Source: a virus. Taken from it: DNA of 64,000 nt. Position 1 is the first letter of the stretch, and every line of letters starts with the position of its first letter. Positions 13,802 to 48,941 of the stretch are shown here, in pieces. Both the position numbers and the translations under genes were made by a program. Location: positions 1-64,000 of IMG/VR virus record IMGVR_UViG_3300037358_000003. One strand, written 5' to 3'. The notes beneath the pieces were generated by a model, which saw only the letters and a program-made list of their open reading frames with translations, did not search any database and was not told where the DNA came from.

Positions 13802-13897
13802 TTAGTCGCCACAGCAATGGTGGCGAAATCCGCAATGGGGACATCTCCACTTCGTTGCCACGGGATCGAACTTTTTATCGCAGTTGATACAGATCAT
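13802..13897 (-). CDS. 31-residue zinc-ribbon microprotein
   Basis: The ATG overlaps the large-terminase stop as ATGA and encodes MICINCDKKFDP, then WRCPHCGFRHHCCGD before a TAA. Two C-x2-C knuckles in 31 residues and precise coupling to the terminase gene argue that it is expressed. Function unknown; small zinc proteins often bind nucleic acid or protein partners. Confidence 0.6.
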   Translation of the reverse strand: MICINCDKKFDPVATKWRCPHCGFRHHCCGD

Positions 13898-16647
13898 CGT
13901 CGCCACCCTTGGCGAGAAAATGGGTCGAACTGCTGGTTCGGACCGTAAGTTTTTATCGCGTCCAAAACGGCCTGATTCGGGTCTACGCCAGAGTGCTGAT
14001 TTGCGGCATTAGGCGCAGATACCCCAGAAGTTAAACTGAACGCCTCTGGCGCAGTTTCAGCCGTGTCTGATGGCACATCTAGCTCGGCCTGGCAGGTCGC
14101 ACAATGTGTAGCCGTAAGTGGATTCGGAGTGGGGCACCCTTTCGGACACATAATGCTTTGACTCTCCAACCAAGCCCTCGCTTGCCAGCCGCCACCGCCA
14201 TTGTAAAACGCAAGACACGCGGCATCAGCCAAGTCCGGCGATGTCACGCCACGCTTCTTCGCTTGCTCTTTCGATTCCACCTTGATCCGTCCACGCATGT
14301 CGTAGTCGTAGAACAACGCAGACATCTGCGAACGCAAGATGGCAACTTCACGATCTATGCAGTCGGGATTGATCGTCAATGATTGATCGCGGAAACGGTC
14401 ACGCAATGACCACCACAACTCATCTCGCAACATCACGAAATCTTCAGGGTGATTGGTCTTGCTGCCAGCGTTCACATCGACAACGCTCAGACCAGCCGTA
14501 CGCATGAAGTCGAGCACCGGACCGCCAAGTCCGCCAGAGTCACCCCAGATACGAGTGACGCCATATTCACGCGCACGATTCGCAGCCCAGCCGCCAACCT
14601 CTGGACCGCTCGCACCGTGCATACGCTCTAGGTGAATGATCTGCGGTCCACGACGAATGCACATGGCCGAATCGTCATTACCGAAACGGGCAATGTCCAG
14701 TCCCATTTGCGGACGATCCGTCTTGTCAAACTCAATCGGCTCACGCTTAATGCGATCAAACCACGCAAGCGGAACGATGATGCGAGTGCCAACGTCAGGA
14801 AACTGACCGAGCACTTTGGAGATCCAACGAGGATCGTCTTCGCCCCACTCGTCGCGACGTTCCTCAACCCATTGCTTTGTAACGAGCTTCGGGTATGGAA
14901 CCTCGCCGTCAGGTGCTTGCAGATTCGGCGTATCAAACGCCGAGATCGGTATGCACTTCCAGCGAGGATTTGACGCCGCTTCGTAGAACGGTCCAGACGA
15001 TTCAATCGGGTTACCAATGAGCAGGCAGGCGGAATCGCCACCGGCCAACAGACCGTTGATCGCTTCGTAGATCGGCGCTTCAACGCCAGCCGCTTCGTCA
15101 ACGACGACGAGCACGCGGCCTTCGTGATAACCCTGCAAGTTTGTCGGGTCAACGACAGAAAGACCACGCGCCCAATTGGACGGTGATATCACCCATTCGG
15201 GAGCACGCGGCAATAGGCGACCAGGAAGCGACGGTTGCCAACCCTTACGAATCTCGCCCCACAGAATCGTTTCGACCTGATTCCAAGTCGTTGCGGTCGT
15301 GATGGCGATGGCGTCAGGTGCGGTCGCTACCCACGCCATGACGACACGAGCGGCGGTCCATGAGTTATGTGTCGGTATGAGCGATTCGCCAGCCAGGAAT
15401 AGGTGACGTGGTGAGTCAACGCTGATGCACTGTGTCGGAACTGATGGAATCTCAGTAATAGATGTAATCGTATGGAGCGACGATCTGCCGGTTCGTGAAT
15501 TCTGTGCTGATGCCTTGCGTTCCATTTTGAACACTGGCATATCCGGCGTAAACGTCATGCGCCAACGAGTGCCGACCACGCGGCCGTCCATGGTAGCGGG
15601 ACGTTCACGAATACTGATCTTCCAACCAAGTGACCGAACCAATTCAGCTACATCGTAGGACAGTTGCTTGTCACAGAGATCAATACTGGCGGCACTCTTG
15701 CTTACGGTACCGTCTGTGTCCATCAATCCTTGCAACAACGCAAGCCGCTGAGCGACAGATGCACGCATATATGCAACGGGAATGTGCTTTATCCCGCCAA
15801 GCATGCCCAGCGATCGGAGATGTGTTTTAACCCCGCGAACGCTTAGTCGCGCAATGTGTTCACGTCCACGAATGCCCGACACCGTTGTGCCGATACCTTC
15901 ACGTTCGATATATGTGGCGACCTCGACAGCATCCACAATTCCCATGGTAATTTCAGCACGAGACGTAGTTCCATCACCGAGCCACACGCCTAACGTGTAC
16001 GGTGGGATGGGCAGATCGGCGGTAGTTCCGAGAACTGGACGGGCTAATGGAATACACCACTTCGCCTGTCGTGTCGTCGTGAACTCTCGCCACAAACCAT
16101 CGTCAGCAATATCATGTGTGCTAACCGTGCGCGCAGAATCCCAGTGCTCACGCCAATCGGAAATACCGCCAGAACTCCCCTGTGTCAGCGAATGACGAGT
16201 ATTCCACGCAAGGGCGGTCCACTCGTGCTCACCTGAAACGACTAGCGATGATCCGTCATCAAACTCGACGCGGAACGACGGCAAATCCCAGACTGGTGAT
16301 TTCGCGGCCACTCTACACGGTTGACCCAACTCGTCATAAATCCAGTCGCCAACGGACAGTGCGCCCATTGTTGACCAGCCATCTGACGTGGCTATGGGGG
16401 TGTCTAGTGCGAGCGCCTTGCCGCTAGCGAAACATGACGGCACAACGACACGACCACGATCCCACAGTTCAGACATGATCTCACGTTGAACTTGCCACGG
16501 TTCCTCGTGCAGAATCTCGTCAACGAAATCAATGGGTCGATCCCTGTACGAATACAGGCGTCGATTTTCAGCCGTCGCTAGTTGTTGCTTCAGATCCTTC
16601 AGCCGGGCCAATTTCTCCGGCGGCGCTTCGATCCTGACGTTCGGCAA
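13894..16647 (-). CDS. terL: Terminase large subunit interrupted by an intein
   Basis: The 917-residue precursor is a 566-residue terminase after removal of residues 78-428. The spliced ATPase domain has a Walker A (CFASGK joined to SWTAARV) and a Walker B (RVLVVVDEAAG). The C-terminal RNase H-like nuclease has its acidic residues in MGLDIARFGNDDSAM, RIWGDSGGLGGP and TSPDLADAACLAF. The enzyme packages DNA by ATP hydrolysis and cuts concatemers. After the nuclease comes a zinc ribbon (CPKGCP...CATC) and a Gln/Pro-rich tail, which is an unusual extension. Its 5' end overlaps the small terminase by 80 nt and its stop overlaps the 31-residue zinc gene. Confidence 0.93.
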   Translation of the reverse strand: MPNVRIEAPPEKLARLKDLKQQLATAENRRLYSYRDRPIDFVDEILHEEPWQVQREIMSELWDRGRVVVPSCFASGKALALDTPIATSDGWSTMGALSVGDWIYDELGQPCRVAAKSPVWDLPSFRVEFDDGSSLVVSGEHEWTALAWNTRHSLTQGSSGGISDWREHWDSARTVSTHDIADDGLWREFTTTRQAKWCIPLARPVLGTTADLPIPPYTLGVWLGDGTTSRAEITMGIVDAVEVATYIEREGIGTTVSGIRGREHIARLSVRGVKTHLRSLGMLGGIKHIPVAYMRASVAQRLALLQGLMDTDGTVSKSAASIDLCDKQLSYDVAELVRSLGWKISIRERPATMDGRVVGTRWRMTFTPDMPVFKMERKASAQNSRTGRSSLHTITSITEIPSVPTQCISVDSPRHLFLAGESLIPTHNSWTAARVVMAWVATAPDAIAITTATTWNQVETILWGEIRKGWQPSLPGRLLPRAPEWVISPSNWARGLSVVDPTNLQGYHEGRVLVVVDEAAGVEAPIYEAINGLLAGGDSACLLIGNPIESSGPFYEAASNPRWKCIPISAFDTPNLQAPDGEVPYPKLVTKQWVEERRDEWGEDDPRWISKVLGQFPDVGTRIIVPLAWFDRIKREPIEFDKTDRPQMGLDIARFGNDDSAMCIRRGPQIIHLERMHGASGPEVGGWAANRAREYGVTRIWGDSGGLGGPVLDFMRTAGLSVVDVNAGSKTNHPEDFVMLRDELWWSLRDRFRDQSLTINPDCIDREVAILRSQMSALFYDYDMRGRIKVESKEQAKKRGVTSPDLADAACLAFYNGGGGWQARAWLESQSIMCPKGCPTPNPLTATHCATCQAELDVPSDTAETAPEAFSLTSGVSAPNAANQHSGVDPNQAVLDAIKTYGPNQQFDPFSRQGWRR
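15364..16416 (-). other. Class 3 intein with LAGLIDADG endonuclease inside terL
   Basis: This 351-residue insertion lies exactly between Lys and Ser of the terminase P-loop. It starts with Ala (ALALDTPIATSDGW) rather than Cys and ends PTHN before a +1 Ser. The class 3 WCT signature is visible: Trp in block B (GEHEWTALAW), Cys in block F (PTQCISVDSPRHLFLAG) and Thr just before the terminal His-Asn. Class 3 inteins splice through a branched intermediate on the block F Cys. Between the splicing blocks are two dodecapeptide-type motifs (LGVWLGDGTTS and LLQGLMDTDGTVS), so the homing endonuclease is probably intact. Confidence 0.88.
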
Positions 16648-34223: not shown

Positions 34224-34781
34224 ATGTTTGATGGACTCACGCCGCCCTACTCAACCATCGTGGCCGATCCTCCGTGGCAATACGGGTCGTGGGGGAAGCC
34301 GAGCAATCGACGGTTAGCGAAGTCGGCGGACACGATTTATCCACTCCCGTATCCGTCTATGACACTAGACGAGATCAAGTCACTTCCAGTGCAATCGCTA
34401 GCAGGTGATGACTGCGAGCTGTATTTGTGGACCACGCAGAAGTATCTATCGAACGCCTTTGACGTTCTTGGCGCATGGGGGTTTCGGTACTGTCAAATCC
34501 TGACGTGGTGTAAGCAACCAAGGGGTCTTGGGCAAGGTGGCGTTTACTGTCCCACCACCGAGTTCGTTTTATTGGGCAGACGGGGATGGATGCCCAAGGT
34601 GCGTCGTCAAGATTCGACGTGGTATCTCTGGAAACGACCAAATAACGCACACTCAAAAAAGCCACCAGAGTTCTTTGATCTCATTGAACAGACAACGACA
34701 GGACCGCGAGTTGAACTATTTGCCAGAGAACGCAGGGAAGGGTGGGACGCCTGGGGCGATGAGATAGAGTGTGTGGCATGA
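34224..34781 (+). CDS. MT-A70-type DNA N6-adenine methyltransferase
   Basis: The 185-residue protein has the catalytic STIVADPPWQYGS motif, LYLWTTQKYLSNAFDVLGAW, the Trp-rich block ILTWCKQPRGLGQGG, and a C-terminal RVELFARERREGWDAWGDE, as in MT-A70 family enzymes. These transfer a methyl group from AdoMet to adenine N6. It is the first of five methyltransferases within about 8.4 kb. Likely role is protection from host restriction or an epigenetic mark. Confidence 0.9.
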   Translation: MFDGLTPPYSTIVADPPWQYGSWGKPSNRRLAKSADTIYPLPYPSMTLDEIKSLPVQSLAGDDCELYLWTTQKYLSNAFDVLGAWGFRYCQILTWCKQPRGLGQGGVYCPTTEFVLLGRRGWMPKVRRQDSTWYLWKRPNNAHSKKPPEFFDLIEQTTTGPRVELFARERREGWDAWGDEIECVA

Positions 34782-35687: not shown

Positions 35688-36203
35688 ATGCGCGTAGCTG
35701 TTACTGGTCACAGACCACAACATCTTAAACTTGAGGATGGCTACTGGATTCAGCATGAGTTCGACCGACTCATTAAGAAGATCAGACCAACGATTGCTAT
35801 CAGCGGCATGGCGTTGGGCGCTGATACTTGGTGGGCAAATGCAGCCGTGACAATGTTGCCACCTTACGGTCCAGTTTCGCTCCATGCCTATGTGCCATTT
35901 CCAGGACAAGATGAGCGGTGGCGGGAGGACGACAGGATCTTTTATCGCCAAATGTTGGCGCAAGCCACCGAGATCATTACCGTCTGCCTAGAATATTCAC
36001 CTGCAGCATTTGAGTTACGAAACCGAGCCATGATCGACAATTGTGACCTTCTGATTGCCGCCTGGAATGGCAAACGATCTGGTGGTACGTTTAACGCTGT
36101 TACCTATGCCAAGAAAAAGGACATGGATATCGTGTATGTTGATCCAGTGCGACGGGTGACCACCATCAGTCGTTCGTCCGAAAGCGCTGACTTTACGACG
36201 TGA
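35688..36203 (+). CDS. SLOG-fold protein (YpsA/DprA-like)
   Basis: The 171-residue protein opens MRVAVTGHRPQHL, followed by TIAISGMALGADTWWANAAV, HAYVPFPGQDERW, then NRAMIDNCDLLIAAWNGKRS and GGTFNAVTYAKKK. This is the SLOG Rossmann-like fold of the YpsA/DUF1273 group, with the G-x-R and G-A-D loops that bind nucleotide-derived ligands. SLOG proteins sense or process NAD-like or cytokinin-type nucleotides and occur in phage-bacteria conflict systems. Two more SLOG genes follow at 43539 and 44850. Confidence 0.75.
   Translation: MRVAVTGHRPQHLKLEDGYWIQHEFDRLIKKIRPTIAISGMALGADTWWANAAVTMLPPYGPVSLHAYVPFPGQDERWREDDRIFYRQMLAQATEIITVCLEYSPAAFELRNRAMIDNCDLLIAAWNGKRSGGTFNAVTYAKKKDMDIVYVDPVRRVTTISRSSESADFTT
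36180..36199 (+). repeat. Start-associated element, copy 8
   Basis: GAAAGC, N5, CTTTACGAC, ending directly before the GTG at 36200; it lies inside the 3' end of the SLOG gene. Confidence 0.7.
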
Positions 36204-36865
36204 TTTACTACGATCTAGACGGTATTACGATCCATCATGCGAACTGTGCTGATGTCATGGTGACTCCAAGCGATGTGGCTCTATTGCTCACTGATCCACC
36301 CTATGGAATCGCCTATAAGTCATCCGCTACTAGGTCTGTTTTGGCCACGTCCCGCGCAGCAGTCGAAATCGTAGGCGACGATAAACCATTTGACCCATCA
36401 TGGTTGCTGCAGTACCCACGAATAGTCCTGTGGGGTGCAAACCACTATGCTGATAAGCTGCCGCCGTCATCGTCGTGGGTCGTGTGGGATAAACTAAACG
36501 GACTCACTAGCGACAGAGACATTGGGTTTAACGACTCATCAGATTGTGAACTGGCGTGGACTAATATTGGTGGGCCAGCGCGTATTTTTTCGCATCGTTG
36601 GATTGGGATGTTACGCGATAGCGAGCGTGACAGGACTGGTTGGCATCCAACGCAAAAACCCGTGGCACTTATGTCTTGGATTTTGAGGGCGTGGACTAAA
36701 CCTGGGGATCTGGTGTACGATCCGTATATGGGGAGTGGCCCCGTAGCAGAGGCTTGCCATTTGGCTGGTCGTAGGTACGTTGGCGTGGAAATGAATGAGG
36801 GCTATTGCGAAAAGGCTGCCAGCAGACTAGCCCAAGGTGTGTTGGACATCTTCGCCAATGTTTGA
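36200..36865 (+). CDS. DNA adenine/cytosine-N4 methyltransferase (DPPY)
   Basis: The 221-residue protein has the catalytic LLLTDPPYGIAY near the N-terminus and the AdoMet motif YDPYMGSGPVAEACHLAGRR near the C-terminus, the beta-class order. TGWHPTQKPVALMSWIL is typical of small phage enzymes. It is a close relative of the gene at 39439, sharing MGSGPVA and KPVALM. GTG start overlapping the SLOG stop by 4 nt. Target site unknown. Confidence 0.88.
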   Translation: MIYYDLDGITIHHANCADVMVTPSDVALLLTDPPYGIAYKSSATRSVLATSRAAVEIVGDDKPFDPSWLLQYPRIVLWGANHYADKLPPSSSWVVWDKLNGLTSDRDIGFNDSSDCELAWTNIGGPARIFSHRWIGMLRDSERDRTGWHPTQKPVALMSWILRAWTKPGDLVYDPYMGSGPVAEACHLAGRRYVGVEMNEGYCEKAASRLAQGVLDIFANV

Positions 36866-36886: not shown

Positions 36887-37528
36887 ATGACAAAACCTCG
36901 CCTTCTCGATCTTTTTTGCGGCGCTGGCGGCGCCGCTATGGGCTATTCGCGTGCTGGGTTTGACGTAATCGGCGTTGACATTAAGCATCAACCTAACTAT
37001 CCGTTTAGGTTTCACCAGATGGATGCGTTACGAGCATTGGGGGTTGATGAATTCCGCGAGAACTTCGATGCGATTCATGCTTCGCCGCCGTGCCAGGCGT
37101 ACAGCTCTGCAACCGCAGACCACTCCAAGCATCCCGACCTTTACGAACCCACGAGGAAGAGACTAGAGGCCGTAGGGCTGCCATGGGTGATTGAGAACGT
37201 CATTGGCGCTCCGTATCGCCAGGGAATTGTCCTGTGTGGGTCCATGTTCGGTCTAGAGATTTACCGGCACCGCAACTTTGAGTCGTCGTTTCTGATGATG
37301 CCACCCCACTGTCGCCACTCCGAATTCGGGCGTCCATACACGATCACTGGGCATTTGAGTACGGAGCAGGAATACAGGCACTCCAAAAAACCATCTCGCC
37401 AACAGGCTGTCGAGATCATGGGGATGCCGTGGGCGACCTGGGACGAGGCCGTTTTGGCCATTCCGCCAGCGTATACGGAGTGGATCGGCACACGCCTGAT
37501 GGAATATCTGTCGCAAGTAGCCGTTTGA
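36887..37528 (+). CDS. DNA cytosine-5 methyltransferase
   Basis: The 213-residue protein has motif I (RLLDLFCGAGGAAMGYSRAG), the catalytic Cys in HASPPCQAYSS (motif IV) and PWVIENVIGAPY (motif VI). It is shorter than typical bacterial Dcm enzymes (over 300 residues), so its target-recognition region must be small. It is the last gene of its block; a leaderless promoter follows. Likely role: modification of phage DNA against host restriction. Confidence 0.88.
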   Translation: MTKPRLLDLFCGAGGAAMGYSRAGFDVIGVDIKHQPNYPFRFHQMDALRALGVDEFRENFDAIHASPPCQAYSSATADHSKHPDLYEPTRKRLEAVGLPWVIENVIGAPYRQGIVLCGSMFGLEIYRHRNFESSFLMMPPHCRHSEFGRPYTITGHLSTEQEYRHSKKPSRQQAVEIMGMPWATWDEAVLAIPPAYTEWIGTRLMEYLSQVAV

Positions 37529-37544
37529 CCTGCATGTTTACCTG

Positions 37545-37573
37545 TTGACAATTGATGTGCCGAGGCGCATAAT
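37545..37573 (+). promoter_or_regulatory. Leaderless promoter P1
   Basis: TTGACA, 17 bp, CATAAT, and an ATG 6 nt further (37580), so the transcript should begin at the start codon. Confidence 0.8.
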
Positions 37574-44689: not shown

Positions 44690-44853
44690 TGCACCACTGG
44701 TGGGTCTATCGCTGGGGACACGGACGCATATCGTGGAGCTATTGGGGCATCAAAGGTTCAGAGCCGATCTATTGGCTATGGATTGGACTCGGATGTCTCG
44801 GATTGCTTCTGGCGATTCAGACACTCCGAATCTGGTTGGCGTGGAAACGATGA
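44686..44853 (+). CDS. 55-residue Trp-rich membrane protein
   Basis: Encodes MMHHWWVYRWGHGRISWSYW then WLWIGLGCLGLLLAIQTLRI, one strong transmembrane helix with basic C-terminus. Overlaps the SLOG gene start as ATGA. Function unknown. Confidence 0.6.
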   Translation: MMHHWWVYRWGHGRISWSYWGIKGSEPIYWLWIGLGCLGLLLAIQTLRIWLAWKR

Positions 44854-45260
44854 CTAATGCGAACGATTCGCATTTGAAGAGAATCCGGGAGATTCAGACA
44901 TACGACCGTGTTTTAGTCTGTGGTGGGCGGGATTTTAGGGACGCACTGTCGATGCAAGATCAGTTACGACGAGTGATGGAACTAGGCGCTCAGCAATCGT
45001 GCCTACCCACTATCATCAATGGCGATGCAGCAGGCGCTGACCAGTTCGCTGATTGCGTGGCCCAACTATTGGGAATGCCTACTGAACGGTATCCGGCAGA
45101 CTGGAAAACACACGGCAAGTCAGCTGGACCCATTCGCAACCAAGAGATGCTGTCCACCGGGATTGACTATGCTGTAGTTATGCCTGGCGGACGTGGAACT
45201 GAAGACATGGTGGGCAGACTCATTAAATCCCGAGTCGGAATGCAGGTGGTTGGCAAGTGA
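44850..45260 (+). CDS. SLOG-family protein (DUF2493 type), second copy
   Basis: The 136-residue protein has DRVLVCGGRDFRDALSMQDQ, INGDAAGADQFADCVAQLLG, RYPADWKTHGKSAGPIRNQE and VMPGGRGTEDMVGRLIKSRV, the same SLOG loops as the copy at 43539, with different surface residues. A degenerate start-associated element (AGAATC, N5, GATTCAGAC; 44880-44899) lies 30 nt into the gene. It follows a membrane microprotein directly, an arrangement also found in conflict-type SLOG systems. Confidence 0.82.
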   Translation: MTNANDSHLKRIREIQTYDRVLVCGGRDFRDALSMQDQLRRVMELGAQQSCLPTIINGDAAGADQFADCVAQLLGMPTERYPADWKTHGKSAGPIRNQEMLSTGIDYAVVMPGGRGTEDMVGRLIKSRVGMQVVGK

Positions 45261-48484: not shown

Positions 48485-48513
48485 TTGACATCTGCATGCG
48501 AGAAGCGCATAAT
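48485..48513 (+). promoter_or_regulatory. Promoter P4, driving the structured RNA
   Basis: TTGACA, 17 bp, CATAAT, the same core as the leaderless promoters. The predicted start (48520-48521) falls on the first base of the RNA closing stem instead of an ATG. Confidence 0.8.
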
Positions 48514-48520
48514 GGGTTTT

Positions 48521-48751
48521 GTAAGGAAGTCGGTACCCAGGAGGTGCCCTCGCAAGTAAGCAGGTGAAGCGCCCTACGGCACTTAAGCACCGAGAGAAGT
48601 TTCTCGGATGAGCAGTGTTTATGAAGGTGGTGGATGCTGAACGGTAAGGGGAGCGAACTTGGAGAACGACCTGAAGAATCATTAGGGTAAGCTCGGAGTG
48701 GCCACGATGAGCCTAGAGTAAATGATTCGGACGGTCGGACCACTTCCTTAC
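48521..48751 (+). ncRNA. Structured RNA of about 230 nt, no known family recognised
   Basis: The interval 48467-48773 has no protein-coding frame that I can support. Its 5' segment GTAAGGAAGTCGGT (48521) pairs with ACCACTTCCTTAC (48739-48751) through 13 pairs and one bulge, closing a large domain. Inside are: AGGTGCC/GGCACTT (48542-48548 with 48578-48584), a perfect hairpin CCGAGA/TCTCGG (48590-48607), and a nested arm CGACC/GGTCG (48667/48733) enclosing AATCATT/AATGATT (48677/48721) and GCTC/GAGC. A short ACGC-TTT-GCGT hairpin (48750-48760) follows, then GGAGG and a GTG start. The 3' strand ACTTCC could instead pair with that GGAGGT, so it may be a cis-acting switch for the next gene, or a free-standing RNA. 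Confidence 0.75.
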
Positions 48752-48773
48752 GCTTTGCGTTACTGGAGGTTTT

Positions 48774-48941
48774 GTGAAGACTCGCAATCCACGGATCAAG
48801 ATTGAGAACTACGGCACAGAAAACTGGCGCACAGAGTGTCAAGATGATTGTGGCGACTGGGCGATTACCGGCCCACCCTACGCAACCAAAACGGAGGCAC
48901 TGTCAATGGTGTCCGAACTTGAGGAGACGTACTTCCAATGA
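48774..48941 (+). CDS. 55-residue protein downstream of the structured RNA
   Basis: A GTG start with GGAGG 4 nt upstream, the strongest ribosome-binding site of this block; most neighbours have none. It encodes MKTRNPRIKIENYGTENWRT then CQDDCGDWAITGPPYATKTE. If the RNA is a switch, this is its first target. Function unknown. Confidence 0.62.
   Translation: MKTRNPRIKIENYGTENWRTECQDDCGDWAITGPPYATKTEALSMVSELEETYFQ

Follow-up and report, generated by a model that had tools for sequence, protein, structure and literature searches.

A previously uncatalogued structured RNA behind a phage promoter belongs to a family spanning at least five actinophage lineages

Introduction

What is made from a strong phage promoter behind which no gene begins? 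The question is raised by a 64,000-nucleotide stretch of viral DNA (positions 1 to 64,000 of IMG/VR record IMGVR_UViG_3300037358_000003, referred to here as the window), in which a promoter of the leaderless type points at 48521, where no gene starts. Sequence analysis confirms that the 231 nt from 48521 to 48751 (+ strand) correspond to a real, previously uncatalogued structured non-coding RNA behind its own strong phage promoter, as judged from its folding, the absence of a reading frame and homologues in four further lineages. It is the comparative evidence that settles the reality of the RNA, folding energy alone being a weak argument.

Results

The promoter and the transcription start

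The promoter (TTGACA-N17-CATAAT, 48485-48513, + strand) has its -35 box at 48485-48490 and, after a 17-nt spacer, its -10 box at 48508-48513. A pattern scan of the 101,772-base record finds seven exact matches to TTGACA-N15-18-SATAAT, this one included, and all seven are on the + strand; the reversed pattern, used as a control, has no matches in the 102-kb record. In five of the seven copies the -10 box is followed at a distance of exactly 6 nt by an ATG, and these near-identical promoters (TTGACA-N16/17-CATAAT at 37545, 40082, 43968, 49308 and 50830, all + strand) clearly constitute, to judge from their sequences, a leaderless promoter class. Because five sister promoters share this spacing, a +1 at 48520/48521 is credible, as the original prediction held, and the predicted RNA start coincides with the first paired base of the terminal stem, which begins at 48521. 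The seventh copy, at L021:2403 (record position 86403, + strand), has no open reading frame behind it and is antisense to a 287-aa minus-strand gene; it does not match the RNA family.

Extent and folding of the window RNA

No gene-like frame is present between 48467 and 48773, and codon-usage scores are negative almost throughout on both strands, in agreement with the claim that no gene starts behind the promoter. The closed 231-nt domain that had been proposed, with a terminal stem (P1) of 13 pairs, is found as described. The 5' strand of P1 (48521-48534, + strand) pairs with its partner at 48739-48751 through a perfect 10 bp helix (48521-48530 with 48742-48751), followed by three pairs (48532-48534 with 48739-48741) beyond the bulged C48531. 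Pair probabilities in P1 are 0.96-0.996 in the complete window RNA, and of 20,000 shuffled sequences 5 contain a perfect helix of 10 bp or more anchored at the start site. Folding energy gives z = -1.56 when the 3' tail is included and z = -3.2 for the exact domain 48521-48751. The GGAGG ribosome site and GTG of the next gene (48766-48776, + strand; 55 aa, 48774-48941) are also present as claimed. Directly 3' of P1 an intrinsic terminator is not evident, so the RNA would be co-transcribed with the gene at 48774 unless processed.

Relatives in other phages

Searches for relatives with the portal, with the 248-aa gene and with a concatenation of three neighbour proteins yielded nothing. Terminase relatives (74-80%) were rejected as carriers, as they lack the RNA and the 17 nt that match in them form a terminator hairpin. 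A first 16-mer scan with the 5' half of the RNA gave seven matches, all by chance; a 20-mer scan of bacterial genomes gave none, and neither did blastn with the window RNA against phages and plasmids. The 15-mer GGGGAGCGAACTTGG, from the 3' half of the RNA, is present in 19 contigs, among which a covariance model built from the window RNA alone (R1) picked out L050, an 85-kb environmental phage contig, with a full-length match of 87.1 bits (E 1.3e-20). The two RNAs are letter-identical at AGGAGGTGCCCTCGCAAGTAA and GGTAAGGGGAGCGAACTTGGAGAAC and differ in their stems. The second of these segments (48643-48667, + strand) is a 25-nt identity with a distant phage, and its GGGGAGCGAA portion is also present in Myrna and ScoobyDoobyDoo.

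Blastn with the L050 RNA matches 191 Mycobacterium phage records in up to two collinear pieces (two in Dandelion; E 0.02-3), and these matches fall in unannotated or 'hypothetical' stretches; by sequence alone, prior to the covariance model, the match to cluster C was weak. A two-sequence covariance model (R2) finds the RNA of Dandelion, a Bixzunavirus of cluster C, at the expected place, and that of Myrna (whole-genome E 0.019) inside a 704-nt unannotated gap between gp8 and gp9. ScoobyDoobyDoo, which like Myrna is a Myrnavirus, was added by blastn with the Myrna RNA (66% identity). The Dandelion RNA region is kept at 80% or more of its length in about 190 records, RefSeq/GenBank duplicates included. 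No matches to the L050 and Myrna RNAs were found in plasmids, and blast matches in Microbacterium and Erwinia were judged to be chance. Model R3, run over 14 whole records, finds members only, with one further match, in G007, at chance level (E 0.75).

These sequence comparisons show an RNA family with members in at least five actinophage lineages: the window, L050, Bixzunavirus, Myrna and ScoobyDoobyDoo. In all of them the gap that holds the RNA contains no CDS or dubious ones only. The family is not confined to environmental actinophage contigs and is carried by well-known mycobacteriophages too. In cluster C, annotated open reading frames overlap the RNA at the N-terminus of Dandelion gp71 and at Cane17 gp55, Tonenili gp76 and FoxtrotP1 gp66 (L060:3244-3402, L066:513-776, L061:713-976 and L062:513-704). 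These are probably mis-called; the small open reading frame that some records place within the RNA has a frameshift in FoxtrotP1 and is uncalled in Dandelion.

A promoter-like sequence precedes the RNA in every lineage. The Dandelion RNA sits behind a TATAGT -10 box, and a TTGCAA-N17-TACAAT promoter lies just upstream of the Myrna RNA. In L050 the promoter-like block CTGCGTACGATYCACTGTGTG..TACCAT occurs twice (826-925 and 1830-1925, - strand), fronting the RNA and the adjoining 298-aa gene, the latter again apparently leaderless.

Conservation of the structure

P1 is present in all five lineages and varies in length from 13 to at least 25 pairs. Its sequence is unalike between the window (GTAAGGAAGT/ACTTCCTTAC), L050 (CATGAGCTGAATGA/TCATTCAGCTCATG), Dandelion (CATCGACAACTCAAGAGAGCATCTGG/CCAGATGCTCCCTTGGGTTGTCGATG, with 25 of 26 paired) and Myrna (10+13, or 23 bp), while the outer part of the ScoobyDoobyDoo stem (15+10 pairs) resembles that of Dandelion.

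The inner domains of four lineages, the window (W), L050 (L), Myrna (M) and cluster C as represented by Dandelion (C), were aligned by sequence only with MAFFT (alignment A6), after the variable loops at the distal end had been shortened in Myrna and Dandelion. Four helices are kept by compensatory changes: 96.8% of cells are paired, as against 34-55% when the structure is slid along the alignment, and double changes are seen in 12 of the 17 pairs. The covariation score is 0.686, compared with 0.02-0.19 for slid structures, and was reached in none of 500 shuffles; a 6-row alignment agrees with this result. The 17-pair structure was derived by hand and chosen on these same four sequences, and the fair test is ScoobyDoobyDoo (S). 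Held out of R3, it reaches 75 bits (E 7e-17); all of its pairs are standard, and two helices appear in new variants, P2a (CAGC/GCTG) and P3 (CTCCACC/GGTGGAG).

In the window RNA, the 5' strand of P2a (CCAGG, 48537-48541, + strand) pairs with CTTGG at 48658-48662, and the helix covaries from CAGG/CTTG in W to CGAG/CTTG in L, CGAC/GTCG in M, CACC/GGTG in C and the variant of S. At one position of P2c (CCCT, 48547-48550, + strand; partner at about 48647-48650) the pair is variously CG, UG or GC. P2b (AGCA, 48559-48562, + strand) pairs with TGCT at 48635-48638, and its variants, GCA/TGC, CCC/GGG and CTC/GAG, are altered on both sides in all three pairs. P3 (CGCC, 48570-48573, + strand; partner GGTG, 48626-48629) is CGCC/GGTG in W, CACG/CGTG in L, ACATCCC/GGGATGT in C and TCCCGCCA/TGGCGGGG in M.

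In every lineage P2b and P3 are separated by a 3-base loop followed by GA, with GA on the opposite strand immediately before the 3' strand of P2b. In the window the first strand (48563-48568, + strand) consists of the loop GGT and GAA and the second (48632-48634, + strand) is GGA; the corresponding strands are GAT-GAA/GGA in L050, TGT-GAA/GGA in Dandelion, CGA-GAT/GGA in Myrna and CGC-GA/CGA in ScoobyDoobyDoo. The second strand is therefore invariant in W, L, M and C, and its GA is kept in S. Sequence and helix covariation together display the canonical features of a kink-turn, with P2b as the C helix, a 3-nt bulge, tandem G-A/A-G pairs and P3 as the NC helix, and point to a putative bend in the inner arm.

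A distal variable hairpin (CCGAGA...TCTCGG, 48590-48607, + strand) gives way in L050 and Dandelion to different hairpins at this position, and cluster C has a large insertion there. The helices of the 3' arm (48667-48737, + strand), CGACC/GGTCG, GAATCATT/AATGATTC and GCTC/GAGC, covary between the window and L050. A second conserved domain, AGTAC.GA.GG...GTGCGCAC...GAGA.TAGG, is common to the Dandelion, Myrna and ScoobyDoobyDoo RNAs (the 3' part of the RNA in L071 and L074, and about 3270-3340 of L060), and is not evident in either the window RNA or that of L050. Given its presence in Myrna and Dandelion, the function of the RNA may differ between lineages.

Comparison with known RNAs

At gathering thresholds, Rfam 15 contains no match for the window, L050, Dandelion, Myrna, ScoobyDoobyDoo or Tonenili RNAs, in a comparison that took in tmRNA, RNase P, group I and II introns, 6S, GOLLD, ROOL, OLE and riboswitches. 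The earlier failure to recognise tmRNA, RNase P or group I or II landmarks accords with this, and for tmRNA neither a tRNA-like domain with a tag reading frame nor a match to model RF00023 was found. The best subthreshold match of the window RNA is to the box C/D RNA sR2 (10.6 bits), possibly due to kink-turn-like boxes in the sequence, and it fits the kink-turn reading. Three findings had been named in advance as counting against a new structured RNA, namely a known family, loss of P1 in homologues and a protein frame. All were looked for and none was found; there is no Rfam match, P1 is kept in the homologues through compensatory change, and there is no protein frame. In the literature covered, from which subscription journals are largely missing, this RNA is not reported for Bxz1, Myrna or Bixzunavirus.

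Several known systems are instructive. OLE (Ornate Large Extremophilic) RNA is likewise a large structured bacterial RNA with an essential kink-turn of the same arrangement, a C helix, 3-nt bulge, sheared G-A pairs and NC helix, which is bound by YbxF/OapC (PMC9723947). OLE differs in being about 600 nt long and bacterial, whereas the window RNA has no Rfam match and no OLE partner gene was seen. The kink-turn motif itself (Klein et al. 2001, as cited in PMC9723947) resembles the NNN-GA/GA arrangement that each lineage has between covarying C and NC helices, although it is a motif and not an RNA family. The early non-coding RNA at the right end of the cluster A phages L5, D29 and StarStuff is very abundant and stable, and its region is toxic to the host (PMC5712189). 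It is similar in being an actinophage non-coding RNA made from an early lytic promoter (PMC5712189). Homology to the D29 RNA was rejected, there being no R3 match in D29 and no conserved motifs in the right-end stretch.

Discussion

A probable independent RNA

The explanation that we favor overall, and consider probable, is a family of structured phage non-coding RNAs that are independent, stable, made early and trans-acting, in the form of a kink-turn ribonucleoprotein. The RNA would be made early by host RNA polymerase and persist as a separate species, its long P1 joining the 5' and 3' ends and so shielding both from decay. The kink-turn would bend the inner arm and offer a putative site for a host protein of the L7Ae type (YbxF/YlxQ family), and the conserved loops (GGTAAGGGGAGCGAA; CTGACGGYTAACGACCAC / CTGAAYGAA) would contact the real target in trans. 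The ribonucleoprotein would work in host takeover, not as a switch for the downstream gene. More tentatively, an early trans-acting kink-turn ribonucleoprotein, or an RNA-only assembly, common to unrelated actinophages could capture or remodel a core host machine, such as the ribosome or RNA polymerase, and would then be a phage RNA machine of a categorically new class.

Alternative explanations

In the original prediction the RNA was a simple on/off mechanism for the gene at 48774. As a cis-acting leader, riboswitch-like or protein-sensing, it would open P1 and let ACTTCC of the P1 3' strand pair with GGAGGT, controlling translation. The RNA does occupy the space that separates the promoter from the start codon, leaving 22 nt free, six such pairs are possible in the window, and several members of the family precede a gene with its own ribosome site. 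However, because P1 is so stable (0.96-0.996), the alternative hairpin is not favored in the complete RNA. Comparable pairing with the ribosome site is not found in L050 or ScoobyDoobyDoo, the complement in ScoobyDoobyDoo lying away from the ribosome site, and five pairs are possible in Dandelion; Myrna's next annotated gene begins about 280 nt past the stem. The flanking genes are unrelated across the three lineages compared, such that the RNA is not consistently linked to any one kind of downstream gene, and the relative of the gene at 48774 (L002, in G001) has no such RNA upstream. Since the neighbors are unrelated and that relative lacks the RNA, an independent RNA is favored over a leader; the proposed switch finds no support, and we regard a cis-acting role as unlikely.

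Alternatively, the RNA could form homo-oligomers without protein, through its conserved loops and palindromes such as GUGCGCAC in the 3' domain of Myrna and Dandelion. The precedents are GOLLD and ROOL, phage RNAs that form nanocages (PMC12286853), and the family described here is also phage-encoded and ornate, with a long closing stem, no linked protein gene and, in C, M and S, a conserved segment that is palindromic. Against this, W and L lack the palindrome, the GOLLD and ROOL Rfam models are unmatched, and at 231 nt the window RNA is much smaller. GOLLD and ROOL are larger (many GOLLD exceed 800 nt) and often near tRNA islands (PMC12286853); there are no tRNA genes in the window. An assembly of this sort is improbable.

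The RNA is bracketed by an exact 8-bp direct repeat, GGTTTTGT, at 48515-48522 and 48768-48775 (+ strand). Because a copy lies at each end, one at the start site and one at the start codon, and removal of the RNA would leave the promoter in front of a leaderless GTG gene at the spacing of the other promoters plus one, insertion of an RNA cassette into a leaderless gene is suggested. Such a mobile cassette, intron- or insertion-like, could account for the presence of the RNA beside unrelated genes in other phages, but inverted ends are absent, the record contains a single copy, no intron family is matched, the other lineages retain their own promoters, and the repeat itself may be chance. We consider mobility quite doubtful.

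A chance structure in a non-coding gap, or a degraded gene, is consistent with the moderate folding z-score alone, but has a negligible probability and is already refuted by covariation in the sequences, with compensatory changes in five lineages, successful prediction of the held-out ScoobyDoobyDoo and the long identity with L050. Other readings were dropped: no reverse transcriptase or TnpB is encoded among the right-arm proteins scanned, as a retron or transposon-guide RNA would call for, and an anti-Shine-Dalgarno sponge acting via AGGAGGTG is set aside because Dandelion has GAGGCACC there.

Significance

The known phage non-coding RNA families with genuine covariation are few, and those studied best are without an established function. 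Bixzunavirus and Myrnavirus, which infect Mycobacterium smegmatis and are among the most intensively sequenced phage groups, carry this covarying RNA in gaps or doubtful open reading frames, and annotation gaps in phage genomes can thus hide shared, conserved parts. As some of the phages that carry the RNA are amenable to growth and engineering in a laboratory strain, the function of a large phage RNA becomes directly testable.

Other features of the window

The terminase large subunit gene (13894-16647, - strand) is interrupted in frame by an intein-like insertion of about 340 aa (SGK/ALALDTPIATSDGW...LIPTHN/SWTAA) that is absent from relatives with 74-80% identity. The + strand arm encodes a SLOG-family (YspA) protein together with several DNA methyltransferases (MT-A70, N6/N4 and C5), at 44700-45260, 34224-34781, 36200-36865 and 36887-37528.
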